Made by a program: the position numbers and the translations under genes. A DNA stretch of 64,000 bases from Polytrichum commune (lineage: Eukaryota; Streptophyta; Polytrichopsida; Polytrichales; Polytrichaceae). The stretch is from NCBI GenBank assembly GCA_950295325.1, contig OX485805.1:37557501-37621500 (forward strand), read 5' to 3'. How positions within the stretch are numbered: the first letter of the stretch is position 1; each line of letters begins with the position of its first letter. The notes under the pieces are model-generated. The model saw only the letters and a program-made list of their open reading frames with translations, made no database searches and was not told the origin of the DNA. Of the stretch, positions 29,073 to 55,006 are shown piece after piece.

Positions 29073-31690
29073 TCAAGTAGTCACAACATTTCGTTGTAGG
29101 TACATTGGAGCGTAGATTAACTTGTTGCTTGTGTAATCCATCTTGCATAGGAATATATACACATAGTAAAGGTGTTTGCAATGCACCCATTTCCCTTTTT
29201 TTCCCAAAGCCATGGAGGATATTTTGATGAAGTCCAAGCATATGCATTGGAGGATGTCACCAATTGTAACACGGTAGGAGTTGTCTTCCTTGGAGACGAT
29301 GTTAATGATCACTCCAAATTTTGGATATGAAATGCCAGTCACTCCAATAACATAGTACATGTGCATGAGTCCGGTGCTTATCCCATTTGTTTTTGTGATC
29401 CACCGTTGGTGTTGTTGGATTATGTCACACTTTCTTTGAAAATTTGGAAGTTGGGTGGGTGTGCGGATTTGGTGGCACATGAGAACGCGGCCGAGGGATT
29501 AGGAATGTCGCAATTGTTGAAAGCCTACGACGTGGCGAAAGGGCCTTCCTCTATTGCAATTAGAATGCGGTGTCTTTGAGTGCCAACACTTCTTCCCTCG
29601 AGAGATTGGTGCCTATCTTCACCAGCCATGTGATGGGAGCTATAGGCCAGTCCAGAACATACATTTTTTTGTTGTCACTCACGCACCATTTGATGTTGTT
29701 GGGGCATAACCAAAATTGATGTTCCACATTGTTGGTGGAACGAAACTCCTTCAACTCTTTGCAAGTTGAAGCAGGAATGCCATGTTTGCAAGTACCGACT
29801 TTTGCATTGCAAAAAGTACTTGTGTTGGCTTGCATCGCCCAACATCCTTTGGTTGAATTTGGGGACAATCTAGCAATTTGCCACTAAGAAGCAGGGCAAT
29901 TAGTCTTTAACACAATGTGGTATGAGCCACAACATGCTCTGCATAATTCAAGGACTCTTCTATGCATGCTCTTTTTGCTCGAGTGTTAAGGCAAAGAATG
30001 GAATAATTCACTAAGGTCGATGTGAGTCGCAATCGGCTCTGGATGGCAAGTCAAGCTTCTGTTTGGTGGATCCAAACAACTCCGAGCCTTTCAAGGCACA
30101 ATCCCTAGTGTTTAGATCTTTTGCCCCCGGATAAGACTTCATGGCCTCCGCCAGTAGCTTTGGATCCCCGCACCTGGCAACATCCTTGAGTTTCAAGAAC
30201 ATTGGATGAAGACCTTTACCAGTAGAACCCCCTTCCAATCATGACCTATAATTTGTAATTCGCATGAAGGCACGGATCAAGTTGTCCACTGTCGCTTCGT
30301 ATAGGCAAATCATCTTGTTGCTAGACTGTTGGAATCATTTGTGCACCGTCTTTGCAAGGTCGCATGTTGGCATTTCTATACATTCATCTATTATCATATC
30401 CTATGAACACTATACAAATTAAAGTAGATTGTATATATTTCTTAGATGTTCAAAATAAAATAACATTGAAGATATAGTATGGTAATGTACTTACAACAAG
30501 CATGTAACCATCCCATTGTTTGTAATGGAAGTGACGAAACCCCAACCACTTGGGCAACTTTAGATGACAACCATCATGAACGAATCACATGATATTTGGT
30601 CTCAACTTCTTCCATTGTCTTCGTGTCCTTGTAATCTTTGAATATTTGCTTGTGCTGAAATTGCAAAAATGGTTTGCTAGACTTTTGTGTCAGCTTATCC
30701 AAGCTCGTAGACCAGTGGAAAAGACATTTGTATTCACGATCGACCATAGGCAACCTAGGGTCACCGTCCCCATAGGTCTTTTTAACTGCATTCCAATTAG
30801 CTTGTGTATTGTTTGTCATGAAACCCTTGAAGTTTATGTTTTGCACTTCATTTTTCGATATGACAAAATTCAATTTTTTCCATAAGAGAATTTGTGTTGT
30901 GCCATCTTTAGATTGCATGTTACAACACACAATTGTTATTGGAACTCAATAGGTCTAGAGATTAGATTGCACAAACATATTACACATACACAAAGGCATA
31001 TGAACAATGATTGGAGTGAGATGGTCTCCTCCACCCCTTGCCTTGCCCTTTATTCTCAGGGGGGGGGGGGGGTCATTGGTTGGAGTAGCAATACACGTGC
31101 GAACAAATGATAGGGTATTTTAAAAACATGGGAGCAAAAAATTATAATTGGGCTTAAGAGTAATATAGGGTATCAAAAATGGCACTGGACATCTTTAAAG
31201 TACTATAGGGTATGGAATAATAGGTAATTTGGAATCATAAGTAATGCAAGCCATTTTTCTATTAACCCGAAGTAGAAATTTACATAATGATAGCATGTGA
31301 AAAAAAGAAGAGAATTGAAAGTAATACCCCCCTATAAAATAATGGTTGTTCGCACCTATATCCTTAACTTTTTAACACACTACCCCCCCCGAGCCTTTAT
31401 TGCTCATTTTTAACCTTCACGTAGGTTCACATCAAACCATTTTGGCATTTTAGAAATGAGGTAGAGATGCTTCTTGGTGAGCTATTTAGTTCAGCAAGTG
31501 GGTGAAGGGTGGGTGCATCATCTGGTGACCGTCAATTGATTGATGTAGCCCTTCCACCACCCATGTCCAAAATTTGTCAAGATCCAAGGCTACGATTTCA
31601 ATATCAGGCACAACTTTACTATTGCCGTCCACCCATGCACAAATCTTTGACATCGGGTGAGCTTCCCATGACCCTTCAAATTTTCTTTGA
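29073..31690 (-). pseudogene. MULE-type transposase relic with SWIM zinc finger
   Basis: On the reverse strand, from high to low coordinates: a segment at about 31650-31530 (DLDKFWTWVVEGLH); then 30930-30574 with NFKGFMTNNTQANWNAVKK and CLFHWSTSLDKLTQK; then an intron-like gap with GTAAGT and an AG acceptor; then 30360-30011 (CDLAKTVHK, ATVDNLIRAFM, GDPKLLAEAM); then 29868-29560 (QFWLCPNNIKWCV, KIGTNLSREEVLAL); then 29480-29073, where CICLDF...KWVHCKHLYYVY gives the CxC..CxH spacing of a SWIM finger. Stops interrupt the frame, at least two of them where homologues would have Trp, and the pieces lie in different frames. The order matches Mutator-like transposon proteins I recognise from non-seed plants (family recall, unverified). 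A G-run MITE is inserted at 31055-31393. Confidence 0.7.
31055..31393 (+). mobile_element. G-run MITE, copy 2, with 8-bp target duplication
   Basis: The 339-bp element begins CTCAGGGGGG and ends CCCCCCCCGAG. CCTTTATT flanks it exactly on both sides (31047-31054 and 31394-31401). It is nearly identical to the element at 28121-28463, in the same orientation. It sits inside the MULE-type pseudogene, so it is younger than that insertion. Confidence 0.93.
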
Positions 31691-32695
31691 AAAACAAATT
31701 ATTTTCATGGAAACCATTTTGATTTGCTAGTGAAGTTATTATATATTATTTATAGCTTTTTCTTGTTGCCCAATTAAATTAGCATGGTTCACATCAATCA
31801 TAGACACTACAAGCATAATTTTTTTTTTGCGTTCCACTTGCCTCTAGTATCACATGATATATTAGAGCTTCTGGATCATTATGCTTTTCTTTGTAAGAAT
31901 TGGAATTTTATTGGTGCAATTGTTTGATGTTGAGAAACTGTAAGTACCTAGACATTGAATCATGGTGAGCACCTATGTGGCACTCCTATTACATAAGTAT
32001 TTGCAACTCCAAGTACTGGCACAACCTCAGAATGTTGTGTAGGTATTTTGCAAGTAATTCATGGGATCATGCAGGTTGTTCAATCAAGATAATACCATGG
32101 AATGTTCTCTGCTTCAACACTTTGAGTGCTAAAAGCTAATTTCCATGTTGGATTGAGCATGGTGTTGTCGAATGTGGATATTACGCGTGCCAAATTCTTT
32201 GCAGAAAATAATTATTTTGTGTCAATCCAGTCAACACTCTGTGGTATTGCTTGTCGAATTTGGGTCATGAGCCATGGGTGACAACTTCGACTAGACTTCG
32301 CAAACACCAGAAAATACGGAAGAAGCGTCCTTGAAACTTAACGTCATAGTGTGCATTATTGACATATCCTTGCCATAAATTTCTACTGGATACTATGTTT
32401 CAAACATCTGTCAGTTCCAGGTCACCAACCACACACAACTTGCATGATCATTTTCTTTCGATCCAGCTACCTACACTCTTTAATGACAGTGCACAATTGA
32501 AGATATTCAAAAACCCCAACATTTTGAAATTGAGATCCGAATCGACTGTTTTGATTGCTGGACATGTAGTAATTTTCCACTGAACAATTTGACTGGATGC
32601 ATCACTTCTTTGCTTTGGCTGATCTTGGTTTGAATTGATTTGTATGAAGTGCATGATCCTTCCTCTCATGAACGCTTACGGCGATCTATTTCTGC

Positions 32696-32815
32696 AAAAT
32701 TGGATATGACGCAGAACGGGAAGCAATGTGGGAAATGGTTGCTGAGGATTTCGACACGCTCATGAAAATTGCTGCGAGCATCGAAGATCCAGAGCTGCAT
32801 GTGAAATTTATAAAC
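32696..32815 (+). other. Exon-like segment of unknown protein
   Basis: A 40-codon open segment reads KIGYDAEREAMWEMVAEDFD, continues with LMKIAASIEDPELHVKFIN, and ends at a donor-like AAC|GTGAGC. A further exon-like piece follows a TTTTGTGTAG acceptor at about 32902 (MQSTLFAKLQYEYPGF). The same segment is kept on the minus strand of the right arm near 54370-54480. The composition is protein-like (acidic, amphipathic), but I do not recognise the family. It could be the remnant of a host gene carried along in the duplicated unit. Confidence 0.35.
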
Positions 32816-33787
32816 GTGAGCTGTGTGGCTGTTTCTTGAGCTGCGTCCTAAGATTGCACAGCTATTGCTTCCCAAGATTGTGGGAGTTTGAGCTTTTTGT
32901 GTAGATGCAGAGTACACTGTTCGCCAAATTGCAATATGAATATCCCGGCTTCACTGAATGAAGATGAAGAGATATCTGAGATCCGCTTGTTCATAACCCA
33001 CTTCCTGTTGGCAAGTACACTCTGAACTTCACTGCTAATTCTCAATGGGAGGATTTTGACAACTACTTCCTGGAAACATGTAGCTGTGAGGGTAGACAGT
33101 TAAATTGAACAAGCAGAATGTGTCATCGATCACCAGAACGGAGATTGATCAATGAGCACGAACAGGGGAGCTACCTGTTTACTTATCCAAACCGATCATG
33201 AAGATAGGAAGTAGAGAGCATAGACTTCGTCTCCGAGGATCAAACATTCTCGAGTGGATTTTGTACACGACAACAGCTTCATTTCACCTCAATTCTCGGC
33301 AAGAACGTTCCATAAAGAATCAGATTCAGATTCCCGTCTCTGATGGTCATCCCAATGTGCATTCACAGATACATCCACGTGATGGAGTCCCACGGCCAGC
33401 ATGTGAATCAAAAAGGTCTACACACTTTGTCACTTGATGCTCGCACTGAGCGCTTCGGAAATTAGCGTTTAGAACTCTTGGCTGTTTATACACCTAGAAT
33501 TGGCCAAGAACCGGCCACAGCTAAATCTCAGGGATACGCAACAAAACCATGGACCTAATACCTGGGAGGAGAATGACAACTGCAAAACGTCATCTGCAAC
33601 GTTGCCAGACAATGGATACGATTCAACGTCACAACCAACACTGATCCAGTATAGATTGGTCGGACGCAGTGAGCACTAGGTCAGTGGTATCTGCGGGGTC
33701 TTGTCCAGCTTTCCCTCACCACTCGGAGACAAATTGCGCACGCTTTAGTTGATTCGGCTACTCCAAAAATTGAATTGGTGACTCCCC

Positions 33788-34041
33788 ATGCATGCACATG
33801 AATGTCAGCGTTCGCCAACTGCAAGTGGCCATGCAGGCAGCTGCAGTCGAGCCTAAAGTGAGCCTAAAGTGCACCGGAAGAAGATAACCCCAATCCAAGG
33901 AACGTCGAGGCACGACTCATGAAGGATTATCAGTTGGCAGTTGGCACGTCGACAACACTTTCATGGGGTGGAATCACGCGGCGACTTCGACGTTGCTAGA
34001 GGTGTCGAGATCCTGTATAACGGAGGCGGTGAGCTATATAA
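33788..34041 (+). promoter_or_regulatory. Promoter of gene A1: RY motif and TATA box
   Basis: A TATATAA box at 34035-34041 lies 140 bp before the A1 start codon, which predicts a 5' leader of roughly 110 nt. An RY element CATGCATG is at 33788-33795. Both are present at equivalent positions in the other two copies (RY at 46512-46519 and 60972-60979; TATA at 46264-46270 and 60721-60730). RY motifs are known targets of plant B3-domain factors of the ABI3/FUS3 type. Binding here is inference. Confidence 0.6.
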
Positions 34042-34180
34042 TGTGCACACCGTCCTCGGAGTTCACCATCATTTTTCATTGCAGCTGCAGCTACCGGATC
34101 CATCCTCCTCATACTTCTCCTCCCGCTTTCTACAGCTCCAGCACTTCACGAGGACTCAGAGAGTTGGATCGAGCGATCAA

Positions 34181-34561
34181 ATGGCGTCCGCCGCGAAGAG
34201 CGCGCTCATCTGCATGGTCCTGTTGGCCGCCGTCATGGCGGTGCATGGGGTCAGCGTGAGTGTTAAGAACCAGACTCCTGTGAGCATCAACGTGAACGGC
34301 ATCGACATTGCGGCGGGTGTCACAGCCGTCGTCACCGTCACCCAAGAGGCGTTGGGCCTGGTCCTGAGCTTGGTGAACAGCCTGGGGAACGAGATCACAA
34401 GCTCCATCGACCTCCCCCTGGGTGTCACGGAGGTGATCCTCACCCAGGTCGTGGGTGGCATTCAGGTGACGGTGGGCGCGGTCACCACGACGCTCCTCAG
34501 CCTCCTGGGCGGGTTGGTGAACTCGCTTCTGGGCCTCGTTCTCGGCACCATCGCCGTGTAG
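34181..34561 (+). CDS. Secreted hydrophobic 126-residue protein, gene A1
   Basis: The protein starts MASAAKSALICMVLLAAVMA and has a clear signal peptide, with likely cleavage after VHG (residue 23). The mature ~103 residues contain no cysteine and almost no charge (one Lys, a few Asp/Glu). They are built of alternating Val/Thr/Ile stretches (probable beta-strands), an NQT sequon near residues 30-32, and a strongly hydrophobic C-terminus (LLSLLGGLVNSLLGLVL). An in-frame extension runs upstream to 33941, but it would include the TATA box, so the MASA start is preferred. The coding part is GC-rich compared with its AT-rich neighbourhood. After the stop, a donor-like CAGTCAG|GTACGG-type site at about 34597 and later AG/GT pairs are conserved between copies, suggesting a spliced 3' UTR. 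I do not recognise the family. A cell-wall or surface-active role is only a guess. Confidence 0.8.
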   Translation: MASAAKSALICMVLLAAVMAVHGVSVSVKNQTPVSINVNGIDIAAGVTAVVTVTQEALGLVLSLVNSLGNEITSSIDLPLGVTEVILTQVVGGIQVTVGAVTTTLLSLLGGLVNSLLGLVLGTIAV

Positions 34562-34883
34562 AACAAACTTAACCTGCAATCGTCTCCATCAAGTCAGGTA
34601 CGGCACTTCTACATTGTGAATAATTATTTGCTGGCCAAAGCGGCACCGCCTGAATTCTTTCGTGCACAATCGATCAGTATTCAAGATCAGGCCGGGAATT
34701 AGAGCGGCATCGGTCGTACGTCGTGAAAGTCGTGTTCTTTACTCTGATCATGGAACTTTGTGCTTTGCAGTATACTTTCTCTACTTACAGAATGCATGGA
34801 GACTGGTGACGTGGCTGGGTTTTGTAAGCATAGATCTGTCACCGATAATTTAACATTTCTGTTTTGTTTTTGGTATCCACAGG

Positions 34884-35769
34884 TCACCTCACGAGTTGCT
34901 GGGGCGCTTGATCGGTGGTCGGAAATGCGTATAAATCCATTTCCTGATGAGGCTGGGCGACTGAGGATCATCATGGCGTTCGGCAGAGAGCTGAAGGGTG
35001 ATGTGCTCAAGTAGTCATATAAGCAATGTAATTTGTATACAGTGGATATTGAGGAACCCGACCTCAAGAAGCTATGGGCAGAAATTCCGAGATAGTGGTT
35101 GCATCTCAAAATGCCTATTCAGTGCTGGGAAACATTTCTTTGTGAAATTCCTGGTCCTGATTGATAAGGTTGCAAATAAAGATTCTTCCACCATTCTTTG
35201 GAAAATCGTTGCAGAGTCCAGAGCTGATAACATTTGCGCTCTTGATTGTTATACTGAGATTTTACATGCTGGTAGGGAAGTCGTGAAATTGTGTTCACGT
35301 TTTCGTGTTCCCGAATTCCGTGCGGTGATGATGAACTTAGAGCTCCTGCAATGTTGCTGGCTACTTGCCTCCTATTACTTGCAATATGTCTCAAATACAA
35401 TTGCCATGGGCCATGTGTTATGATTTTTCTTCGTTTTGAGCAATTTACATGAAGCAAGGATCAGCCTTTGACCTGGGTCGACAGACTTTCTCCATGGAAA
35501 TTCTTTGGAGTGATGACACAAGATGCTTCTTGTCACAGACGAGTCTTACAATGATGCGTAAAGCTGTTGCTGCTAAGCTCACAGTAACAGAAAAGAGACA
35601 CAGCATAGAGAAGGTAATACTCAAGAACTTCGTATCAGGTCGAGTTGATACGGTTACTAAACATACGACTACTGAAGGAAGCAAACAAAATAATGTGAAC
35701 GAGGATAGATTCTACACGAAAGAATGGTGCAGCTTTGACTTGCAGAGAATTTGCCTGAGTGTAGGTTAA
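34884..35769 (+). other. Conserved open segments between A1 and B1, function unknown
   Basis: Three open segments follow A1. The first is 34884-35012, after a TATCCACAG acceptor-like site, ending RELKGDVLK-stop. The second is about 35128-35423 (VANKDSSTILWKIVAESRAD). The third is 35449-35769 (RHSIEKVILKNFVSGRVDTV). Counterparts exist on the minus strand at 45300-44525 and 59890-59104. In the second unit the first segment has TGA where this one has CGA, and in the third unit the last segment is truncated. Because the copies are recent, preserved frames are weak evidence for coding. They may be 3' exons of a longer transcript or passenger gene fragments. Confidence 0.3.
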
Positions 35770-35799
35770 TACATGACTTGATGAAGACGAACGAAGCTA

Positions 35800-36041
35800 A
35801 TTTGGTCCTACACAACGCCGTTGAGAAGGCCGACAACGTGGCCCAGAAATGCATGTTGTGCACTCACCAGGTCATTAACGGCCATGGTGAACCCGTCTAC
35901 CATCATCTGAATGGCCATCCACAACTTTGGTGAGGACCACCTCCGTGGCGCCTAGGGGGCAGTTGTAGGAGCCTGTGATCTCCTTCCCCATGCTGTCCAC
36001 CAAGTTCAGGACCACACCCAACACGTCTTGAGTGACGTTGA
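35800..36041 (-). pseudogene. B1: decayed paralogue of gene A, tail-to-tail
   Basis: On the reverse strand this stretch follows the second half of gene A: NVTQDVLGVVLNLVDSMG-like, then GATEVVLTKVVDG-like, then the closing LLGLVL region in broken frames. It lacks the signal-peptide half, contains stop codons, and is interrupted at 36042 by a copia LTR. It faces A1 in convergent orientation, as B2 faces A2 in the other arm. Confidence 0.75.
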
Positions 36042-36900
36042 TGTTAGAATTATTACCGCATCCACTTACGAATCACTCACCAACATTAACTTAGTACCAA
36101 TCCCGTTACCACATTAACTTACCAATTAGTTACCAAGTTACTTTTCTCTGAAGATAACTTTAGACTCAACTTGGAGAGAACTCTCCTTTTACATTCATTG
36201 CACTAGAAATGGCTCTGATGAGAATAGCCAACATCACTACTTTCACTCACACACAAGTGAATTCTCTAAAATCACTCCACCACTTGTATTTGCAGATAAG
36301 TAAACTTGTGTAGATAAGCTTAATACCTCAAATATAAATAGAGTTGTATGTCTTTGAGTTGTATCTCATTCAGTGTGTACCTGTTTGATCAAGGTGAGAA
36401 GGAATTCCAAGGATTTTGAACATGGTATCATAGCGATACTCTTTTTTCTAGAACGTAGTCATTCATCACTAAGCATTGTAGAGAAGAGTCGATCATAACT
36501 ATCAATCACAGTTTGCAAATGTATGCTAGAGCAGCATAGTCTCAGGTAGACTGAGTAGGTTTTGTCGAAGTGACAACATCCATTGAGAGACAACAGTAGT
36601 TGAAAGTGTTAGGTGAGAACAAAGTCTTCAAGTCGTTGCAGTCCTTGTTATTACATCCACAAGTCTGCTGGAGTACACCATCGTAGATCCCAGGTTGGAG
36701 AGGAAAATCTTAGCACAGAGAGGAGGAATTTGGCTTCACAATAGTGTTTTGACTTGCACAGCAGAAACTAGAGATGTCGGCAGAAGCTAGTCCATACAAC
36801 ATGAGTGGTGCCAACAAACTTGACGGCATTGGTAACTATTCTGTGTGGAAGATTAAAATGAGAACAATATATAGAAAGGGAGCATTTCATGCACCCTAAA
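36042..36900 (+). mobile_element. Truncated Ty1/copia: LTR, primer site, gag start
   Basis: A 381-bp LTR (36042-36422) starts TGTTAGAATTATTACC and ends TTTTGAACA. It is followed at once by TGGTATCATAGCG (36423-36435), one mismatch from the usual plant copia primer site TGGTATCAGAG, complementary to the 3' end of initiator tRNA-Met. At 36774 a gag-like frame opens (MSAEASPYNMSGANKLDGIG, then NYSVWKIKMRTI), matching copia gag N-termini, and stops after about 42 codons. No pol or second LTR is present here. The first ~160 bp of this LTR are duplicated in the right arm (43748-43897). Confidence 0.85.
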
Positions 36901-38162: not shown

Positions 38163-39786
38163 ATATGGAGGAAGTACTGGACGAGATTCAGGCGCATCCA
38201 GAGAGCCATGGCGGACCTCCTGATTGCATTGTAAATTTGTTAAATTTTTGGCAAGTTATTGTTTTGCAGACACTGTTGGTTTCCCAGACCTCACTTATGT
38301 ATTCAACTTAGTGGTCAATGTTGCATTAGTGATAAATGAAACATATATATATTCCAATATATAAAGTGACTATGTGGACTGAGGTGAAACTTCAGTTGCG
38401 AAGCAGACACTACACATTGTTTGATATCCTCTACTGTCGGTGAACATGAAGGCATGTGACACTAGTTGCTGGAAAACAGATGGTTCATCAGCAGTTTGTC
38501 TTTGTCAAATTAGAATCGGTTCCTAAAGTTTCTAATGATTGATTTCGGAGATGACATGTTTTGAGCTTGGTTATATGATTTTATGTGCAGTTTCTCTGCA
38601 GGCTTCGTGACATTAGTCTTCGGGAAGTAGGGTTCTATGACATGTATAGACAGATCAAGGTACCTTTTTTTTCAAATTTAACTTTGAGTGTTGCCCAGTC
38701 ATCTCTGTTGTGCAATCTAGATGCTGTGAAACATTGAATATGGGTTTTTGTAGTGATGAGGCCTTTGAGGGTCATTTCTGAGTTTAACTTATGATTTCAA
38801 ATCAAACACTCAGATGAATTTGTATATTTACAAAATTATGTTTGAGTACGTAACAGGACGATGAGAATACAAAGGCTTTAGCTTTGCTGGAGGGCGTAAT
38901 TGCCCAAGCAGATGCAATCACGGATATTGGGGCCCGAATAGAACATCTTGTTAAGGGTGTCTTCTCTGGAAATATCTTTGACCTTGGGGGCTGCATGCCC
39001 AGGTATTGGCTATGATTGTAATGACCAAAGGAATGAGGTTTTGTTTTCTCCATTTGGGTAGCACTTTGGAATGTGAACTTCCGTTCCAATTATTGGATAA
39101 TGAACTGGTAAATCTGAAGGTTTTGCGATCCAAGTGGCAGAGTACTCTCACGAGAACTTTATTCATACAACAAAATTCAGATTTCTGCATGAACGAAGGC
39201 TCCTCAATGTTCAAATATTTGAAGCAGTTTGGTGAGAATGGTTTTGCAAATATGGTCTGGATTTTTTTTCTGGAGATTAGACATTGACCTGCGTAAAAGT
39301 CGAAATTATTTGAGGAGACTCTCATATTTTACTATCTTTGTGTGCGATGTGAAAAGCTGGCAGAGATATTTGTATCCTCAGGGTCAAACTTTCAGGAAAG
39401 TTTTGATAATTCACTGCCTCGACCATGGGCGATTGACGATATTGACCAGTTTAAGCTGAAGTGGCTACGCAAGCCCTGGAAAAAGGTTGGTCACTCTTGA
39501 AATTTTGTATGAGAAAACTGTTCGGTTTGTTTCACCAGTTATGATGTGGAAAGCTTAGTAGTGACAGCATAGTATTTTTATGAGGAGGAGAATTGAGATG
39601 CTCTTGTGTGCATATTCATTGCCCGGTTTCCTCTTTGGTCAACCCTGTAAAATTCTAACGAGGGCCACTGTGTGGGATTGCTTTGTTGTCTTACAACAGG
39701 CAGTGATTTTTGTGGATAATGCGGGATCAGATGTAGTGTTGGGCATTTTACCACTTGCAAGGGAGCTCCTCCGACGAGGTACAAAG
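38163..39786 (+). pseudogene. DUF89 (phosphopantetheine phosphatase-like) gene, central exons
   Basis: Five exons are visible: 38163-38230 (HPESHGGPPDCI), 38591-38659 (FLCRLRDISLREVGF), 38857-39002 (HLVKGVFSGNIFDLGG), 39357-39485 (LPRPWAIDD ... WLRKPWKK) and 39700-39786 (AVIFVDNAGSDVVLGILPLA, then RELLRRGTK). They have standard GT/AG borders, except that the phase between the third and fourth exon does not fit cleanly. The VDNAGSD block is the metal-binding core of DUF89/ARMT1 phosphatases, which in plants and the PANK4 C-terminus remove phosphate from 4'-phosphopantetheine-type compounds (CoA damage control). The first ~100 residues and everything after RRGTK are missing on this strand. The last two exons lie downstream in opposite orientation. 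The gene cannot be expressed as an intact protein. Confidence 0.88.
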
Positions 39787-40550
39787 GTCTGGGTTTTATG
39801 CTCACTGCACTTTTTCTTGTGTTGTTTTTCTTCCATTTTTCTTTGCTTGTACCTTGCTACAAACAGGGTTTTATTCTAAGCCTCCAAGTTCTGTAGACGT
39901 GACCCCAGGCAATGAAGTATCTATATGATCATGTTCTCAGTTACTGAAAGAAAAATTTGAAATACATTCAAGGTTTAATCATGTCACCAGGGGATTTTAG
40001 TTGTTTTGGGCAAGTTGTTTTGGAAAGCAGATAGGCTATTGTCTATGAAACTCGGTGGCAGTGCAGGTGATTGCCTATGAGACCTCAAATAAATCACTGT
40101 TGTTTTTTGGAGAAGGCTAAATCCCCTGTAGTAACACACAGCTGGCTTGGGCGTGGCCATCGTGGCATGCGGACCCGTGGTGGTGCCTGGTCCATTTTGC
40201 CCCCTCGCTGACGCCCGGGACCCAAACCCGAGTCACTTGCACATTGCAACGCCGTAACACTAATGTGTGTGGGCATGGCCGCTTGACCTCAAATCCCATA
40301 TTGAGTGCACTTCACCTCCAAGGTCTAAAAGCCAATATATGTGTGCACTTCCATTTAGCAAATAAGCAATTGATTGGGATTTCATTTTGGAAGTGAAGCC
40401 ATCAATGAAGCACGTAACTTGGAGGTCAAAAACATCACAAAATCCTCGTTAACATTGAAGTTATAATTTTTGTGACTTACCATTTGAAATTATCTTTGTG
40501 ATTCTAAATTTGATGTGCTGATTTAATATGTATATTTTATGGTATTTTAG
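39787..40550. other. Sequence where the next DUF89 exons should be
   Basis: The expected exon after RRGTK (family: VVLAANELPSIND) is not found on either strand here. A GC-richer patch at 40120-40290 has no recognisable coding content. Confidence 0.45.
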
Positions 40551-40645
40551 GTAATGCCGTCTACCTTTCACAAGAATTCTACACAGAACAATGGGTAGGG
40601 AGCTTCGCCTCCATGGAATCTAGTCTACTAGTCTGTGATGTGCAC
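40551..40645 (+). other. Orphan exon-like segment
   Basis: A 95-nt open segment is bounded by TATTTTAG| and CAC|GTAAGT, both good plant splice signals. It reads NAVYLSQEFYTEQWVGSFAS, then MESSLLVCDVH. It starts with a two-nucleotide partial codon and does not fit the phase of the preceding DUF89 exon. I do not recognise it; it may belong to another gene shuffled into this interval. Confidence 0.4.
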
Positions 40646-40876
40646 GTAAGTATGAACAGAAAATGATAATGCTTTCCCTGAAAGAAAATTGCAAAAATAG
40701 GAAACCTGCACAACTGAGCCAGTTCACAGACAGCTTGAAGAGAAGTGGAGCTAGACAGTGTAGAATATCAACAAAGCCACGATGCGGAAATGACTACTTG
40801 CAGGAATTGCCATCAACTGTGAGAGAGTGACTGCAATATTTTAACCATTTGACAAGACTAAGAAGATTGTTTTCAT

Positions 40877-41281: not shown

Positions 41282-41728
41282 CTGAAAGTGAACAAATAGC
41301 AGTGGAAAACACATAATTTCTATGACTCATGGAGATGTTTGTTAAGTGCTCATTCATTGGTGTTCCTTCACCTAAACGTTTCATGTTAGGTTTGTTGTCC
41401 ACCTCCCCTTCCTCCTCTCTTGCCCACTCCCTCCGAAATTTGCAAGTCTCTTACCTAACGTTCTGTACCAAGAGTTCGTTCCACAACATCATCATCACTG
41501 GATAATAACTTAAACCTGGTATCTCTCTCAGCATTTGGGTCCCATGAACTCTATATGAATTCATAATCTGTTTTGGGAAGGTCAATTGCATGCGCTCATT
41601 CCGTCGATGTCCTCACTCTGCTGATCGGTAAAGACCATGCCTTCTGTTTCTCCTTCAGAATTCCAGGCAAGATTGCTACCTGCTCATGGATAAGCAATGT
41701 CGCATCGTCATTTCCGATCTTTTGATTT

Positions 41729-43747: not shown

Positions 43748-43897
43748 CAATGTAAAAGCAAAGTTCTCTCCAAGTTGAGTCTAAAGTTATCTTCAGAGTA
43801 AAGTAACTCGGCAACTACTTGGTAAGCTAATGTGGTAACTGATTGGTACTAAGTTAATGTGGTAAGTGATTCGTAAGTGGATGGGGTAATAATTCTA

Positions 43898-44137
43898 ACA
43901 TCAACGTCACTCAAGACGTGTTGGGAGTGGTCCTGAACTTGGTGGACAGCATGGGGAAGGAGATCACAGGCTCCTTCAACTGCCCCCGAGGCGCCACGGA
44001 GGTGGTCCTCACCAAAGTTGTGGATGGCCATTCAGATGATGGTAGACCATGGGTTCACCATGGCCGTTAATGACCTGGTGAGTGCACAACATGCGTTTCT
44101 GGGCCACGTTCTGGGCCTTCTCAACGGCGTAGTGTAG
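43898..44137 (+). pseudogene. B2: decayed paralogue of gene A
   Basis: It reads INVTQDVLGVVLNLVDSMGK, EITGS, then RGATEVVLTKVVDG, then falls out of frame with stops before the closing region, whose DNA (TTTCTGGGCC...GTGTAG) still resembles the A stop region. It is the counterpart of B1 and convergent with A2. Confidence 0.78.
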
Positions 44138-44524
44138 TGATGAATGAAACATAGTTACGTTCATCCAGTCATCGCAATGGATGCATTCCGTCGATGTTGC
44201 AGAACATTCCACAAAGGATGTTTCCGCAGCAAGAGGATGTATTTACTCATGAGAGGATTATGAAGATCTATCTTATGAAGTGTAGTGTATCAGGAGTAGA
44301 GAAGAATTGGAGAAGACAATCTCTTGATAGATACGGCAATCCATAGCATAACGATCAAGAGTTGTACCAGGCGTAGGAGTAATGAGAGACAATACTCCGT
44401 AAGGTGTAAAGCTCAGCTTAGAAATAAAATTTCGTTCAGTAAGCAGAGTTATTCTTCACAGATACTTGTCGTGATCGATCCGAATTTGCGTCATGTAGGA
44501 TCAAGTTAGCTTCGTTCGTCTTCA

Positions 44525-45300
44525 TCAAGTCATGTATTGACCTACACTCAGGCAAATTCTCTGCAAGTCAAAGCTGCACCATTCTTTCGTGTAGAATCTA
44601 TCGTCATTCACATTATCCTGTTTCCTTCCTTCAGGAGTCGTATGTTTAGTAACCGTATCAACTCGACCTGATATGAAGTTCTTGAGTATTACCTTCTCTA
44701 TGCTGTGTCTCTTTTCTGTTACTGTGAGCTTAGCAGCAACAGCTTTACGCATCATTGTAAGACTCGTCTGTGACAAGAAGCACCTTGTGTCATCACTCCA
44801 AAGAATTTCCATGGAGAAAGTCTGTCGACCCAGGTCAAAGGCTGATCATTGCTTCATGTGAATTGCTCATCACGAAGAAAAATCATAACACAGGGCCATG
44901 GCAATTGCCGTTGAGACATATTGCAAGTACTAGGAGGCAAGTAGCCAGCAACATTGCGGGAGCTGTAAGTTCATCATCACCTCACGGGATTCAAGAACAC
45001 GAAAACGTGAATACATGCTCACAACTTGCCTGCCAGCATGCAAAATCTCAGTATAACAATCAAGAGCGCAAATGTTATCAGCTCTGGACTCTGCAACGAT
45101 TTTCCAAAGAATGGTGGAAGAATCTTTATTTGCAACCTTATCAACCAGGACCAGAATTTTCACAAAGAAATATTTCCCAGCACTGAATAGGCATTTTGAG
45201 ATGCAACCACTATCTCGGAATTTCTCCCCATATATAGCTTCTTGAGGTCGGGTTCCTCAATATCCACTAAATCTATATCTTATATTGCTTATATGACTAG
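44525..45300 (-). other. Conserved open segments between B2 and A2
   Basis: These are counterparts of 34998-35769. The reverse-strand frame 44812-44525 (RHSIEKVILKNFISGRVDTV) keeps 95 codons with a few conservative changes from the left arm. Frame 45163-44930 keeps VANKDSSTILWKIVAESRAD. As in the left arm, no family is recognised and coding status is uncertain. Confidence 0.28.
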
Positions 45301-45746
45301 TTGAACACATCATTCTTCAGCTCTCTGCCGAACGCCATGATCCTCAATCGCCCAGCCCCACCAGCAAATGGATTTATACGCATCTCCGACCATCGATCAA
45401 GCGCCCCAGCAACTCATGAGGTGACCTGTGAATACCAAAAACAAAACAGAAATGTTAAATTATGGGTGACAGATGCTTACAAAACCCAGCCACGTGACCA
45501 GTCTCCAGGCGTTCTGTAAGTAGAGAAAGTATACTGCAAAGCACAATGCAGCTCCATGATCAGAGTGAATAACACGACTTTCACTACGTACGACCGATGC
45601 CGCTCTAATTCCCGGTCTGATCTTGAATACTGATCGATTGTGCACGAAAGAATTCAGGCGGTGCCGCTTTGGCCTGCACATAATTATTCACAATGTATAA
45701 GTGCCATACCTGACTTGGTGGAGACGAATGCAAGTTAAAGTTTGCT

Positions 45747-46127
45747 CTACACGGCGATGGTGGCGAGAACGAGGCCCAGAAGCGAGTTCACCAACCCGCC
45801 CAGGAGGCTGAGGAGGGTCGTGGTGACAGCGCCCACCGTCACCTGAATGCCACCCACGACCTGGGTGAGGATCACCTCCGTGACACCCAGGGGGAGGTCG
45901 ATGGAGCTTGTGATCTCGTTCCCCAGGCTGTTCACCAAGCTCAGGACCAGGCCCAACGCCTCTTGGGTGACGGTGACGACGGCTGTGACACCCGCCGCGA
46001 TGTCGATGCCGTTCACGTTGATGCTCACAGGAGTCTGGTTCTTAACACTCACGCTGACCCCATGCACCGCCATGACGGCGGCCAACAGGACCATGCAGAT
46101 GAGAGCGCTCTTCACGGCGGACGCCAT
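45747..46127 (-). CDS. Secreted hydrophobic 126-residue protein, gene A2
   Basis: This encodes a 126-residue protein identical to A1 except for Ala-to-Val at residue 5 and Gly-to-Ala near residue 123 by my reading. The signal peptide, the cysteine-free mature part and the hydrophobic C-terminus are intact. The DNA also differs at only a few positions from A1, whereas the flanking DNA has more substitutions and several indels. TATA (46264-46270) and RY (46512-46519) sit upstream on the reverse strand. The 5' flank is cut by the copia insertion about 970 bp upstream of the start codon, beyond these promoter motifs. Confidence 0.8.
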   Translation of the reverse strand: MASAVKSALICMVLLAAVMAVHGVSVSVKNQTPVSINVNGIDIAAGVTAVVTVTQEALGLVLSLVNSLGNEITSSIDLPLGVTEVILTQVVGGIQVTVGAVTTTLLSLLGGLVNSLLGLVLATIAV

Positions 46128-46263
46128 TTGATCGCTCGATCCAACTCTCTGGATCCTCCTGAAGTGCTGGAGCTGTAGAAAGCTGGAGAAGAATGAGGAG
46201 GATGGATCCGGTAGCTGCAGCTGCAATGAAAGATGATGGTGAACTCCGAGGACGGTGTGCACA

Positions 46264-46519
46264 TTATATAGCTCATCGCCTCCGTCATACATGATCCGGC
46301 CACCTCTAGCAACGTCGACGTCGCCGCGTGATTCCACCCCATGAGAGTGTTGTCGACGTGCCTACTGCCAACTGATAATCCTTTATGAGTCGTGCCTCGA
46401 CGTTCCTTGGATTGGGGTTATCTTCTTCCGGTGCACTTTAGGCTCACTTTAGGCTCGACTGCAGCTGCCTCCATGGCCACTTGCAGTTTGGCGAACGCTG
46501 ACTTTCATGTGCATGCATG
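46264..46519 (-). promoter_or_regulatory. Promoter of gene A2: TATA box and RY motif
   Basis: The reverse-strand TATATAA is at 46270-46264 and CATGCATG is at 46519-46512. Spacing to each other and to the start codon is close to that in A1. Confidence 0.6.
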
Positions 46520-47095
46520 GGGAGTCACCAATTCAATTTTTGGAGTAGCCGAATCAACTAAAGCGTGCGCAATTTGTCTCTGACTGGTGAGGGAAAGCTG
46601 GACAAGACCCCGCAGATACCTCTCACCTAGTGCTCACTGCGTCCGACCAATCTATACTGGATCAGTGTTGGTTGTGACGTTGAATCATGTCCAGTGTCTG
46701 GCAACGTTGCAGATGGCGTTTTACAGTTGTCATTCTCCTCCCAGATATTAGGTCCATGGTTTTGTTGCATATCCCTGAGATTCAGCTGTGGCCGGTTTTT
46801 GGCCAATTCTAGGTGTATAAACAGCCAAGAGTTCTAAACGCTAGTTTCCGAAGCGCTCAGTGCGAGCATCAAGTGATAAAGTGTGTAGACCTTTTTGATT
46901 CACATGCTGGCCGTGGGACTCCATCACGTGGATGTATCTGTGAATGCACATTGGGATGACCATCAGAGACGGGAATCTGGATCTGATTATTTGAGGAACC
47001 TTTTTGCTAAGAATTGAGGTGAAATGAGGCTGTTGTCGTCGACTACAAAATCCACTCAAGAACGTTTGATCCTCGGAGGCGAAGTCTATGCTGTC

Positions 47096-48112
47096 TGAAG
47101 AAAATGTGGACTAATACACATGTATCTGTGTGAGAAGTTGCTTTGAATTGAAATGAAAATTTTATTTCTACTTGACTGGAATGCACATCTTACGGAATCC
47201 CTTTCTACTGTATTCCTACGCCCGATGTGGATCTATTGTATCTACGCACTATCTTGACTAGCTAAAGCATATGCTCTCTATCTGTCTATCAATTGTGTGC
47301 TTACAAAGATGCTTCCGAAGACTGACTACCTGCAGTTAAGTATCAGTGCTCAAGGGGCGCCTAGTTCTGGAAGCTTCGTCGCGACCTCTGACAGAATTCA
47401 TCCGAATGACTGATGAACGTAAGTAGTTACTTTCATCGCTCCCACTCGTTCTTCGGTCATTCGTGAACCCTAACCCTGGCTAGGTGGTGCAGCCTAGTTC
47501 TTCCTAAGAGTCTGAAACCTAACCCTAAGCCTAGAGGTCTAAACCTAGAGATTGCCTTGGTGAATTTGATTTGTTGCTATGACGTCCTGGTTCACCACGT
47601 CACCTTCACAGGAGAATATGGCGCAACATGTCTCTTCAATCATCACCCAACAGTATGTAGGTGCACGTTGTTTAATCATGCCGGGGCAGATATGGTTTCG
47701 ATCATTTCCTAAGTATGGAGGAGCATCCCCTTTAATCATGTCAGGCGGCCTTTTCGCCTTAAGCTCGTCAGGCGGTTGCTCAAATCTCTCAAGCCTTTTC
47801 AGCCTCGACATTTCTTCTTTGAAGCCCTTCTCATCTCATACTTCTTGCAGTCAGACTCGTTGTTCCTTCAGCTTTGTGGCTCGATTATGGCTCTTGCAGT
47901 GACTTCAGCTTCGCGTTCCGCAACAGTCTCCTACTCCATGCTCCGCGATGGTTTTAACTTGTGTTGTCTTCCTTGTTAACTTTCCTGCTTTGCTGTTGCT
48001 TGTCGACTTCTTGATCTGTTTCTCATCTGTGTGCTAACTTCCTTGTTCTGTCTTTGCTTGCTAGCTCCTTAATTCCTTCTAACTTGTGTCCTGTGACCAG
48101 GTTGCTGCTCTC
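47096..48112 (-). repeat. Inverted copy of the element's 3' end
   Basis: It begins TGAAGAAAATGTGGACTAAT, the reverse complement of the true LTR end (…CACATTTTCTTCA at 48429). It continues through the whole LTR and about 190 bp of internal 3' sequence, ending in GTTGCTGCTCTC at 48112. The frame 47545-47811 (-) is residue-identical to 53286-53552 (+). This copy preserves the LTR's last 50 bp that the actual 3' LTR has lost. Confidence 0.92.
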
Positions 48113-48117
48113 ACAGA

Positions 48118-48429
48118 ATTCGGATGAATTCTGTCAGAGGTCGTGACGAAGCTTCCAGAACTAGGCGCCCCTTGAGCACTGATACTTAACTGCAGGTAGT
48201 CAGTCTTCGGAAACATCTTTGTAAGCACACAATTGATAGACAGATAGAAAGCATATGCTTTAGCTAGTCAAGATAGTGCGTAGATACAATAGATCCACAT
48301 CGGGCGTAGGAATACAGTAGAAAGGGATTCCGTAAGATGTGCATTCCAGTCAAGTAGAAATAAAATTTTCATTTCAATTCAAAGCAACTTCTCACACAGA
48401 TACATGTGTATTAGTCCACATTTTCTTCA
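48118..48429 (+). repeat. Partial 5' LTR in direct orientation
   Basis: It matches 53690-53951 of the 3' LTR and then extends a further ~50 bp to the LTR end TTTTCTTCA. The upstream part of this LTR, with any promoter it carried, is missing and replaced by the inverted segment. Confidence 0.88.
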
Positions 48430-48444
48430 GGTTATGGGCCCACC
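48430..48444 (+). other. Primer-binding site for half initiator tRNA-Met
   Basis: GGTTATGGGCCCACC directly follows the LTR end. It is complementary over 15 nt to the anticodon stem-loop region of plant initiator tRNA-Met (GGUGGGCCCAUAACC), not to the tRNA 3' end. Drosophila copia uses such an internal half-tRNA primer. Known plant copia elements usually use the 3' end. Confidence 0.85.
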
Positions 48445-48488
48445 GCAAGAGATCTAGCTTTTGATTGAAGTTCTATTGTCTACATACC

Positions 48489-51400
48489 ATGGATAAGAGA
48501 GACTCTGAGATTCGAGTGTTTGACGGGACTAAGTTCCCTGTCTGGAAGTTCTATATGGAACTCTGTTTCTCCACCCGAGAGGTAATGCCTATTGTCAATG
48601 GCACCACACCGCAACCAGGTGCAGAAGCTTCAGAACTTGAGAAGGCAGCATGGATAAAGGGTGATAACCTGGCAAAGCAGTTGATAGGCGCGTCAGTAAC
48701 TCTATCTGTGCTAGAAAATCTCGTCAATTGTACAACCGCAGCTTCTATGTGGTCTACACTGTGTGCATTTTATCAACACAAATCAAAAGAAAACATATAC
48801 ATGGTACAGAATAGCTTCTATGAATACAAGATGAGCATAGGAGATTCCATCAACACCCATGTTAACAAGGTTATTAGCATGGGTAATCTTTTAAAGGATC
48901 TGGGCAAACCAGTTGATGATGACATGCTTATCACCAAAATAATCTGTAGCTTACCTCCCAGCTATAATAGCATTGTTACCGCCTGGACTAACCTCCCTGT
49001 TAGCAACAAACCGTTGAAAATCTTAAGGTTCGCCTGCTGCAACTGGAACATCTCCTGGCGCTACAAGGGGGAGAACTTGCAGGCGACTCAGCATTTTTCA
49101 CCCGCTCCAACAGAATGCCCTCACAGAACAAGAAGTCGCACCATGAGCAAAACAAAGAGTACATCAAGAACCTGAAGGGTCGCACTCGTTGTTACAACTG
49201 TGGAGAGCACGATCACTGGACAACAGAATGCCCACAACCAAGACGCAATAAAGATAAGTTCTCAAACCAAAAGAAGAACAGAATTGATTATCAGCAACGA
49301 TTTTCCAAGACCAAACGTAGCGACGCTTATGTTGCTACATCTGAGCAGCCTAATTCTTGTTCAGATAACTCAGAACAAGACTCTGAACCAGATGCTCACG
49401 CGTTCATGGTCGTCAACAAACGGTCACAGGCATTGAGTGTCAACCTGGACAAACAAGCCTGGTATGCCGACTCAGGAGCTACTGAACACATGACAGAACG
49501 CCGCGATTGGTTTGCTACCTTTAAAGACATACCATCAGGCACATGGGCTGTTGCTGTAGCAGATGACAGAGATTTGTGGGTCAGAGGGATAGGTGATATC
49601 CATATCACACGCCTAGTTGCTGGAGAACACAAGAAAGGCATTCTCAAGAAAGTATTATTCATACCTGAATTGCGGCGGAACTTGTTCTCCATTGGACTTG
49701 CATCCAAAGCCGGCTTATCTTTCCAGACCCTCGGAAGCAGATGTGTTCTCTATGACGATCTTGGACGAGGCCCGATAGTAATGGAAGGCACCCAAGTTGG
49801 AACACTCTACAAACTCTCTATCAGTCCTGTTCTTCCTACACCAGCGCCGGATCTCCCACCTGCACTAGCACTGGCTACGCCACCTGCAGATCGACCCCCA
49901 TCGTCAGTACTTGCCGTCACCAATTCTTGTGACACTGACTTAGTACTCTGGCACAACAGAATGGGCCATGTAAGTGTACAAACGATCAAGAATATGAGCA
50001 CACACAACAGTGTCAAGGATATGCCAATTCTTGCTCATAACACACTACCTGGTATCTGCTCCGGTTGTGCTCTGGGCAAACAACACAAATCGACATATCC
50101 CTCGAATTCAGAGAAAGAAAGGTCAAAGATACTTGGAGAGTTGCTGCATGCCGACTTGTGTGGAAAGATGTCCACTACTTCTTTAGGAGGTGCTCGTTAT
50201 TACATTTTAATCAAAGACGATTGTACTTCCTTCAGATTTGTCGTTTTTCTTGCAGCAAAAAGCAGTGCTATCAGATTCTTCACTAAAGTCTTACGATATG
50301 TCGAGCGGACAACCGGAAACCCCGTCAAGACTCGCACTGATCGCGGAAAGGAGTTCTGCAACGCTAATTTCGACTTACTACTTGAGAACGAGGGCATACT
50401 ACGCGAGACAAGCACCTCATACACTCCCCAACAGAACGGATATGTTGAACGTGACAATCGCACCATCTGTGAAGCCGCTCGGAGCATGCTCCATCTTCAC
50501 AACTTACCCCTGAAACTCTGGGCAGAATCCATTCACACAGTAGTCTACCTCCTTAACCGGACCATCAACACCCAGGTTGGTTTTGTGACTCCCTACGAAT
50601 TATGGTTCAAAAAGAAACCCACTGTTTCTCATTACAAAACTTTTGGTATTCTTGCTTATATCTTCACTGATAAGTCTCAGCGTACTAAGTTTCAACCCAA
50701 AGGTTCTCGGGTTGTATTTGTCGGCTACAGCGACACAAGCAAGGGTTGGAGATTTTGGAATCCACTTACAGATCGTGTTTCGGAAAGCTCTGATGTGATA
50801 TTTGATGAGGCTATTGCTTACTCCCCATCTCTTTCTCAACCAAACAACCTCCACACGATGACATTCCTTCTTCCCTATTCTTCAACCTCGAACCCCCTGT
50901 TATCCCCCCTCCCCCACCCTAGATCGCTCCCATTCCTCTTCCAGTGGGAGTCTCCTCCACATCAGACTCTCTCCCTTCTCTCGAGCCTGATAGTCCTTCT
51001 GACTCTCCATCAGACCCTCTAACTTCTTCTGATGACCCCCTACCATCTCCTGCTCTTCCTTCTATTTCGTCTCCTCCTCCCTCTACTATTCCCTCTTCCT
51101 CTCCCCTCACAGACGAGCCTATTCACCATAAGTATCGTTCTCTCACTGATATTTACACTGACTCACCTGCTCCCGCACAAATCCCCTCTGCTCCACCACC
51201 CGCTCAGCTTCTCCCTCCACCACCCCCTTCCCCAGCGTCCTCTGCACAAAGTTCTTTTGCCAATATGATCACATCTGCAGAAACATACCGCGAACCAGCT
51301 ACATACACTCAAGCCATCATGTCTCCTCAAGCTGCGTATTGGAAAACAACTATGGAACGCGAGTATGATTCATTGATGGAAAATCGTACCTGGATACTCG

Positions 51401-52875
51401 TTCCCCCTCCACCCGGCCGCACTATTGTTCAATGCAAATGGGTGTACAAGATCAAGTATACATCAGCTGGTACCATTGACAAATACAAAGCACGGCTTGT
51501 GGCCAAAGGTTATAGTCAAGTTCATGGCATTGACTATACAGAAACCTTCAGTCCAGTTATCAAGCACGACTCTGTCCGAGTTATCTTCGCGATCGCGGCT
51601 GTCCTACGCATGCACATGCGACAATTCCACATCGCGACGGCCTACCTCAACAGCGATCTTACCACCCGCATCTACATGCACCAACCTGAGGGGTTTACCA
51701 GCACCACACATCCTTCTCATGTGTGCTTACTCTTAAAGAGTCTTTATGGCCTCAAGCAATCTGGCCGCTTGTGGAATCACACCTTTGACGCTTTTCTCAA
51801 GCTCTATAACCTTACCACCAGCGACGATGACACTTGTGTCTATTACTGACTTACTCCTACCAACTCTGTCGATCTAATTGTCGGCATCTTCGTCGACGAT
51901 GGTATCGTTTGTGCCTCAGCTCCCACAGATCTTGATGCAGTTATCCACCATCTTCAGACCACATTCAAAGTCACACATGGTCCTATGGATTACTACGTCG
52001 GCTTTCAGGTGCACCGCGATCCTAACACTCATTCCATACTCATTAACCAGGCTCGCTACATCGCTGATATTCTTGACCGCTTCAACCTAGACAAGGCAAA
52101 CCCGGTCACCACCCCTGCCGACACCCACATCCCACTACAAGCTATGCTCGGCCCAGACGACCTTACCCTTCCTCCCTCTGTCTTATACCGCGAAGCCGTC
52201 GGATGCCTCATGTATGCCATGGTCTTAACTCGCCCGGACATTGCATTTGCTGTTAGCAGGGTTGCCAAGTTCACCAGTGCCCCTCGCACCTCCCATTGGA
52301 CAGCAGTCAAACGCATCTTTCGCTATCTCTCCGGGACCATCAACATGGGTATCTCCTACTCTGACTCGCTAGCAACTCTATCTCTCCGAGGTTATTGCGA
52401 TGCAGATTATGCTGGCGACCATGACGATCGGAAGTCACGAACATGTTACCTCTTCCTTATCGCAAATGGCGTGATCGCTTGGAGCAGCAAACACCAAGGG
52501 TGCACAGCCGACTCCACCACTGAAGCGGAGTTCGTCGCCATGGCAGAAACAGTTAAGGAAGCCATCTGGCTTCGCCGCCTCCTTTTCAGCCTCGGTTTCC
52601 CTTCCTCCACACCCATTCCCCTCTTCTCTGACAACCAAGGAGCTATCCAACTTGTTAAGAACCCCAAATACCACAAATGTACCAAACACATCGAAGTCAA
52701 ATATTACCTCATTCGAGAAAAATACGAACTTGACCAGATCGATGTTCTTTATGTTCATACCAAACAGCAGCTTGCAGATATCCATACCAAACCTCTTCCC
52801 CGCGAAGCATTTCAACACCTCCGCCGTCTCCACGGCCTTGCTACTCCCCTGTCTCGAACGAGTGGGAGACCTTGA
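48489..52875 (+). pseudogene. copia gag-pol polyprotein, inactivated
   Basis: Domain order is that of Ty1/copia. It has gag (from 48489), a CCHC knuckle CYNCGEHDHWTTEC (49190-49231), protease WYADSGATEHMT (about 49460), GAG-pre-integrase ending CSGCALGKQH, and an integrase with HADLCG, RTDRGKEF and NGYVERDNRT supplying D, D and E. Reverse transcriptase follows, with KARLVAKGYSQ and FVDD (51889-51900), then RNase H with CDADYAGD and DSTTEAEFVAM. Lesions are a one-base frame change at about 49007-49010 in gag, a frame change before 50944 plus a TAG at 50920-50922 in the linker, an in-frame TGA at 51847-51849 just before FVDD, and His (51628-51630) in place of the first catalytic Asp of reverse transcriptase. 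It cannot act autonomously. Confidence 0.93.
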
Positions 52876-52900
52876 GATATGGGTAGAAGAAACAAAAGCG

Positions 52901-53042
52901 AGCGTTCTCACAGGAGAGCAGCAGCCTGGTCACAGGACACAAGTTAGAAGGAATTAAGGAGTTAGCAAGCAAGCGTTCTCACAGGAGAGCAGCAACCTGG
53001 TCACAGGACACAAGTTAGAAGGAATTAAGGAGCTAGCAAGCA
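52901..53042 (+). repeat. Tandem 71-bp pair before the 3' LTR
   Basis: AGCGTTCTCACAGGAGAGCA starts at 52901 and again at 52972. The two units differ at very few positions. The inverted left-end copy ends inside the second unit. Confidence 0.85.
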
Positions 53043-53171
53043 AAGACAGAACAAGGAAGTTAGCACACAGATGAGAAACAGATCAAGAAGTCGACAAGCA
53101 ACAGCAAAGCAGGAAAGTTAACAAGGAAGACAACACAAGTTAAAACCATCGCGGAGCATGGAGTAGGAGAC

Positions 53172-53951
53172 TGTTGCGGAACGCGAAGCTGAAGTCACTG
53201 CAAGAGCCATAATCGAGCCACAAAGCTGAAGGAACAACGAGTCTGACTGCAAGAAGTATGAGATGAGAAGGGCTTCAAAGAAGAAATGTCGAGGCTGAAA
53301 AGGCTTGAGAGATTTGAGCAACCGCCTGACGAGCTTAAGGCGAAAAGGCCGCCTGACATGATTAAAGGGGATGCTCCTCCATACTTAGGAAATGATCGAA
53401 ACCATATCTGCCCCGGCATGATTAAACAACGTGCACCTACATACTGTTGGGTGATGATTGAAGAGACATGTTGCGCCATATTCTCCTGTGAAGGTGACGT
53501 GGTGAACCAGGACGTCATAGCAACAAATCAAATTCACCAAGGCAATCTCTAGGTTTAGACCTCTAGGCTTAGGGTTAGGTTTCAGACTCTTAGGAAGAAC
53601 TAGGCTGCACCACCTAGCCAGGGTTAGGGTTCACGAATGACCGAAGAATGAGTGGGAGCGATGAAAGTAACTACTTACGTTCATCAGTCATTCGGATGAA
53701 TTCTGTCAGAGGTCGCGACGAAGCTTCCAGAACTAGGCGCCCCTTGAGCACTGATACTTAACTGCAGGTAGTCAGTCTTCGGAAGCATCTTTGTAAGCAC
53801 ACAATTGATAGACAGATAGAGAGCATATGCTTTAGCTAGTCAAGATAGTGCGTAGATACAATAGATCCACATCGGGCGTAGGAATACAGTAGAAAGGGAT
53901 TCCGTAAGATGTGCATTCCAGTCAAGTAGAAATAAAATTTTCATTTCAATT
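53172..53951 (+). repeat. 3' LTR, truncated at its right end
   Basis: The probable start TGTTGCGGAA follows a purine-rich GGAGTAGGAGAC, which would serve as polypurine tract; this start is an inference. The right end stops at TTTCAATT, about 50 bp short of the complete LTR end preserved at 48429 and 47096. It then passes directly into host DNA CTACTTCCTATC. Confidence 0.7.
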
Positions 53952-55006
53952 CTACTTCCTATCTTCATGATCGGTTTGGATAAGTAAACAGGCAGCTCCC
54001 CTGTTCGTGCTCATTCAATCTCCGTTCTGGTGATCGATGACACATTCTGCTTGTTCAATTTAACTGTCTACCTTCACAACTACTGTTTCCAGGAAGTAGT
54101 TGTCAAAATCCTCCCATTGAGAATTAGCAGTGAAGTTCAGAGTGTGCACGTGCCAACAGGAAGTGGGTTATGAACAAGTGGATCTCAGGTATCTCTTCAT
54201 CTTCATTCAGCGAAGCCGGGATATTCATTGCGATTTGGCGAACAGTGTACTCTGCATCTACACAAAAAGCTCAAACTCCCACAATCTTGGGAAGCAATAG
54301 CTGTGAAATCTTAGGACGCAGCTCAAGAAACAGCCACACAGCTCACGATTATAAATTTCACATGCAGCTCTGGATCTTCGATGCTCGCAGCAATTTTCAT
54401 GAGCGTGTCGAAATCCTCAGCAACCATTTCCCACATTGCTTCCCGTTCTGCGTCATATCCAATTTTGCAGAAATAGATCGCCGTAAGCGTTCATGAGAGG
54501 AAGGATCATGCACTTCATACAAATCAAATAAAACTAAGATCAGCCAAAGCACACAAGTGATGCATCCATTCCATGGTATTATCTTGACTGTGAATAACCC
54601 ACATGATCGCATGAATCACTTACGAAATATCTCTACAGCATTCTGAGGTGTTGCTGATACTTGGAGTTGCAAATACTTATGTAATAGGAGTGCCCATAGG
54701 TGCTCACCATGATTCAACGTCTACGCGCATACAGTTTCTCAAAATTGAACGATTTCACCATAATAAAATTCCAATTCTTACAAAGAAACGCATAATGATC
54801 CAGAATTTCTAATATATCATGTGACACTAGAGGCAAGTGGAAAGCAAATAATTTATATGCTCGTATTGTCCATGATTGATATGAACCATGCTAATTAAAT
54901 TGGGCAACGAAAAAAACTATAGATAATAACTAATAAATAAAAACTTCACTAGCAAATAAAGATAATTTCCATGAAAATAGTATGTATTTCAAAGAAAATA
55001 TTTAGG
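53952..55006 (-). repeat. Right arm of the A/B unit, distal part
   Basis: This continues the arm interrupted at 47095 and is the reverse complement of 31676-33230. It includes the exon-like segment (reverse strand near 54370-54480). It stops at 55006, where R1 begins. In the left arm the corresponding point lies at the edge of the MULE-type pseudogene. Confidence 0.88.

Follow-up and report, generated by a model that had tools for sequence, protein, structure and literature searches.

The closest described parallels to the locus considered here are the W palindromes of Salix purpurea, whose arms are 14 to 73 kb long, range from 96% to above 99% in identity and carry single-arm insertions and deletions as well as high-identity patches ascribed to gene conversion (PMC7023750). 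We analyzed a 64,000-nucleotide stretch of Polytrichum commune (GenBank assembly GCA_950295325.1, contig OX485805.1, positions 37,557,501 to 37,621,500 of the forward strand), hereafter the window, with coordinates counted from its first letter, and found in it an imperfect palindrome that resembles the willow case in having a spacer between inverted arms, genes in several copies, single-arm insertions and deletions, uneven arm identity and long terminal repeat (LTR) retrotransposons. It differs in that its arms are ~8 kb long and 86-96% identical, while the Salix case is sex-linked and was tested between species (PMC7023750). The second parallel is interlocus gene conversion between duplicated genes, in which a limited tract is copied non-reciprocally between paralogs (PMC3924818); the present ~3.6-kb tract differs in being inferred from one arm pair. 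Microhomology-mediated break-induced replication, a source of complex duplications (PMC2621351), is a candidate mechanism for the inner joint of the right arm, where the few bases of possible microhomology are not diagnostic. The literature supplied general parallels of this kind, no search having been aimed at the host species. The locus itself looks like an ordinary plant-type layered duplication of a kind already known. As argued below, the inverted duplication is probably old, and gene conversion or re-copying probably reset its inner ~3.6 kb at a later time.

Geometry of the inverted duplication

The arm pairings come from a self-BLAST of the window, in which the best arm-to-arm piece scores 3967 bits, far beyond chance. 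The stretch 31666-36195 of the left arm (+; A) pairs in inverted orientation with 55013-43749 of the right arm (-; B), at 94-96% over an inner unit. The component pieces are 31666-32104 against 55013-54567 (-; 84.9%), 32594-33215 against 54568-53951 (-; 96.3%), 33213-35818 against 47096-44488 (-; 94.2%) and 35808-36195 against 44137-43749 (-; 94.4%). A preliminary description had already given 31676-36203 and 43748-55006 as reverse complements on either side of a 7.5-kb spacer; the self-comparison that it proposed as a check bears out the inverted pairing as real, with ends within 10 bases of those figures and a spacer of 7,553 bases. Its estimate of a ~4.5-kb unit captured the real inner pairing but fell short of the full extent, since 10424-14211 also pairs in inverted orientation with 58963-55007, the BLAST pieces being 83-87% identical, and a third copy of the unit, C, lies beyond. 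In this outer part the end piece 13710-14211 reaches 78.6% in a gapped search, and ~440 bases around 12234-12674 align poorly, at 61-64%. Because the left point 14211/31666 meets the right point 55007/55013, the segment 10424-14211 and the inner stretch belong to one arm, and the outer and inner segments follow in the same order, colinearly, on both sides. Two long colinear arms in opposite orientation with a spacer between them constitute an inverted segmental duplication, here an imperfect palindrome running from 10.4 to 59.0 kb and spanning 48,540 bases. The structure is larger and older than first described, and it is layered, with a core that was probably reset.

The left arm thus comprises the outer segment R (10424-14211, +), the last part of the outer arm (31666-32103, +; 84.9% to 55013-54567), a 491-bp block found in A only and facing a gap in B (32103-32593, +), and the inner unit A (32594-36195, +). 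On the right, the inner unit B falls into an inner end in which an LTR is truncated ~155 bp in (43749-44137, -), a middle part (44494-47095, -) and an outer end (53952-54567, -; 96.3% to A), followed by the outer segment R (54568-58963, -), as delimited by self-BLAST and the arm alignment. B had been described as interrupted by a copia element; this insertion is present at 47096-53951, and to it must be added a 356-bp solo LTR found in B only (44138-44493, -), flanked by a 5-bp duplication (TGTAG), and the 491 bp found in A only. In the outer arms, 254 bp are confined to the right (57578-57831) and 141 bp to the left (13569-13709). These differences bear on whether the palindrome is a false inverted join, inverted arms being a known source of assembly errors and our verdict resting on the assembled sequence. 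A fold-back of this sort predicts near-identical arms, whereas the observed ones diverge by 4-14% and carry arm-specific insertions and deletions, including the B-only solo LTR and the 5-bp duplication that flanks it; we therefore regard an assembly artefact as highly unlikely.

A step in divergence between the arms

When the arms are aligned end to end, the outer part shows 502 mismatches in 3611 columns (13.9%; 86.1% identity) and the inner unit 159 in 3583 (4.4%; 95.6% identity), so that the inner unit is less diverged than the duplicated sequence next to it in each arm, and abruptly so. The poorly aligning stretch 12234-12674 was excluded from these counts, and the outer divergence is, if anything, underestimated. 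The best single change point falls at A 32084/B 54587, beside the 491-bp A-only block, with a log-likelihood ratio of 103, against a largest value of 8.2 among 200 permutations in which every fifth position was scanned. The BLAST pieces flanking the step, at 84.9% and 96.3%, agree with it independently of the joined alignment. Transversions alone also step (189/3611 outer versus 69/3583 inner, P 1.7e-14), and therefore C-to-T decay alone is an insufficient explanation. A single duplication followed by uniform decay does not give such a step.

One way to keep a single duplication is to suppose that the unit has evolved more slowly through constraint. Its coding part is indeed strongly conserved, with 6, 5 and 3 differences per 381 bases between A and B, A and C, and B and C, respectively; however, the unit minus its coding sequence is equally low in mismatches (153/3202) and the change is abrupt, which makes this explanation highly improbable. 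Alternatively, there might have been two separate duplications, first of the outer arms and later of the unit, re-copied in place by repair via the remaining homology, which comes near to conversion while implying a distinct history. This predicts the same divergence step, and C shows that the unit was copied on a further occasion; yet the second copy must have landed next to R with its register and orientation preserved, which conversion gives free, and we judge it rather unlikely. Conversion between the arms would be the simplest route to the reset.

On the favored reading, an old inverted segmental duplication would have produced two ~8-kb arms, each made of the outer R and the gene-bearing unit, which then decayed to ~14% divergence while acquiring their own insertions and deletions. 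Non-reciprocal copying between the paired arms, by ectopic gene conversion or break-repair re-copying, may then have reset the inner ~3.6 kb, which would since have diverged by 4.4%, and the reset would have halted where the 491-bp length difference breaks pairing. The partial copy C probably split off after the old duplication but before the last reset, and the solo LTR and a young copia element would have entered B only. The locus offers a clear one-locus example of an inverted duplication in which two levels of divergence adjoin at an indel, as conversion halted by a length difference should appear.

Several points weigh against this reading. To assume one change point is to simplify, and the ~440 outer bases that align poorly were dropped. 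Homology within one genome cannot tell conversion from a second duplication. Among the runs of variable sites described in the next section, that shared by A and B, the very pair that the model concerns, is no longer than chance (6 sites, reached in 5549 of 10,000 shuffles), and clustered mutations can likewise give long runs of sites. Finally, a 4.4% difference persists within the unit, so that any conversion has been neither recent nor continuous. Near-identical arms and ongoing exchange are expected of conversion-maintained palindromes, and with 4.4% divergence inside the unit we therefore do not class the locus among them, but only as one that worked so at one time.

The duplicated gene and its third copy

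Each of the three copies of the unit holds an intact reading frame of 126 codons and a stop (A, 34181-34561, +; B, 45747-46127, -; C, 60201-60581, -), the N-terminus of which looks signal-peptide-like by eye. C is a truncated copy at 58960-60982 (-), oriented in the same direction as B and 92.7% identical to B and 92.6% to A. Within the reading frame, every pair of copies shows 2 nonsynonymous codon changes, accompanied by 4 (AB), 3 (AC) and 1 (BC) synonymous ones, while the flanking DNA shows 89 (AB), 129 (AC) and 119 (BC) differences per 1618 columns. Over 1999 columns shared by the three, private sites number 78 in C, 51 in A and 39 in B, with 5 three-state sites. C is more distant from both A and B than these are from each other, and it is for this reason placed before the last reset. 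In 10,000 shuffles, the longest run of variable sites at which A and C agree (10) was never reached and that at which B and C agree (11) was reached once, as expected of a mosaic exchange; an exchange involving C is thus hinted at, and the same comparison of variable-site runs among A, B and C revealed no patchwork between A and B. We tentatively raise the possibility, which we consider doubtful, that conversion among the three copies keeps a lineage-specific secreted-protein gene near-uniform, including its synonymous sites, as the surrounding DNA decays.

The 126-codon product has no match in Pfam and no sequence match in the PDB up to E 5, and tblastn against 31 IMG/VR and 271 GTDB pattern-bearing stretches confirmed no relatives; AlphaFold2 run without an alignment returned a mean predicted local distance difference test (pLDDT) score of 45. 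A diverged antisense fragment of the gene lies nearer the spacer in A (35704-36041, -; 71% identical to 34332-34675 when the latter is reverse-complemented), where it is cut by an LTR, and its counterpart in B is 81% identical over 143 bases. We also considered the unit as a gene-carrying transposon; no shared termini were apparent by eye, and the ends of the arms lie in an LTR and at C. The flank immediately past the outer end of C (60999-61126) matches 16696-16816, within the block found in the left arm only (see below), in inverted orientation, at 85% over 128 bp, and is not colinear with the arms.

The LTR that cuts the antisense fragment belongs to an older copia element, whose 5' end (36041-36900, +, end approximate) is recognized in the sequence by the LTR start TGTTAGAATT, a primer-site-like TGGTATCATAGC and the start of gag, at which a DUF4219 match is weak (E 0.067, below the cut-off). 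The left junction had been placed at a copia LTR, and the LTR does lie at the inner edge; its first ~155 bp, however, are inside both arms, cutting the gene fragment in A as well as in B, and therefore the LTR predates the separation of the two inner units. In A it continues to the primer-like site and the start of gag, while in B it stops after ~155 bases, at a tandem array. Given that the LTR truncated in B runs on in A, it is a fair guess that the inner edge of B, with its cut LTR beside the array, is a new joint derived from break repair.

Spacer, insertions and other repeats

The spacer contains a broken, partly inverted gene of the DUF89/ARMT1-like phosphatase family. Five exon matches to PF01937 and to At2g17340 (1xfi) occur in order at 38174-39789 (+) and cover residues 83-244 of the latter, whereas the last two exons are inverted (40886-41302, -), with 41302-41216 and 40957-40886 corresponding to residues 314-342 and 342-365. 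The earlier view of this gene as scrambled therefore holds for these two exons and is otherwise too strong, the other five being colinear. Residues 1-82 and 245-313 were not found, which is a weak absence, and two convergent broken copies instead of one inverted gene would look the same. Downstream lies a truncated glycosyltransferase-like gene (42048-42569, +), which matches a Stella open reading frame (ORF) of 251 residues at 60% identity over residues 6-180 of the latter. The gene had been called broken, with which an in-frame TGA at 42216-42218 agrees, and a search of the window with three bacterial queries for its 3' part past the GAFLHR exon end gave chance matches only (E 2.8 or worse). 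Nothing credible was found for it in the PDB (best E 0.13), and six frames of 39900-43802 gave nothing in Pfam up to E 0.1. Relatives are encoded by 41 of 79 pattern-bearing stretches, and the 60% identity to an alphaproteobacterial protein suggests, from sequence similarity, an old transfer or a shared bacterial origin.

A diverged tandem array of ~217-250 bp units (42539-43750, +) starts at the exon end and GT splice donor of the glycosyltransferase-like gene, repeats this exon end and donor in five copies, and runs up to the inner edge of B, where the preliminary description had correctly put the right junction. Its units are 65-79% identical in six pairs, with 89% between the first two repeats, so that most of the array is more diverged than either the outer or the inner arms. 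That description had further attributed the duplication, the exon inversion and the array to a single breakage-and-inverted-repair event. All these features do lie within 24 kb, and the inner edge of B truncates an LTR where it meets the array. They nevertheless fall into different divergence classes (array 65-89%, outer arms 86.1%, inner arms 95.6%, copia ~99%), and the DUF89 inversion lies within the spacer and has no edge in common with either arm, its ends sharing only chance-level matches of 8-15 bases in either orientation (E 0.62 or worse). We hence give very little credence to a single event, and the locus serves as a caution that neighboring rearrangements need not be one event. A reasonable order, resting on the divergences, would be the antisense fragment, the older copia LTR, the array, the inverted duplication of R and the unit, C, the reset, and last the young copia element together with, provisionally, the solo LTR; the exon inversion stands outside this order.

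The young copia insertion in B (47096-53951, +) shows Pfam matches to copia gag and reverse transcriptase domains between direct LTRs that are ~99% identical (~1% difference). The right end of the element recurs in inverted orientation as its left 1 kb (47145-48112 versus 53952-52985, 99.9% over 968 bp), which apparently replaces the start of the 5' LTR; the 3' LTR is truncated, without its last ~50 bases, and no 5-bp duplication is preserved. The sequence GGTTATGGGCCCACC follows the 5' LTR at 48430-48444, and appears to match, as a complement, initiator tRNA-Met at its anticodon region rather than a tRNA 3' end; a half-tRNA primer is a feature of Drosophila copia.

Colinearity and junction alignment delimit a block of 17.45 kb present in the left arm only (14212-31665), the ends of which share CCATGGC/CCATGAC (CCATGRC). 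It may be an insertion on the left or a loss from the right arm, the shared motif fitting a target duplication and a microhomology deletion equally. Six frames of 14212-28700 gave a single Pfam match (E 0.047, below its cut-off), and neither two ORFs searched in 28701-31665 nor four at 1277-6139 matched Pfam. The block also includes a 173-bp sequence repeated in tandem in three copies that are 95% alike (16114-16633). Just outside the left inner arm, 28114-28467 and 31048-31397 form an LTR-like direct repeat of ~350 bp (93%) spaced 2.9 kb apart, and further to the left 8211-8498 and 8700-8987 form a direct repeat of 288 bp, 92% alike.

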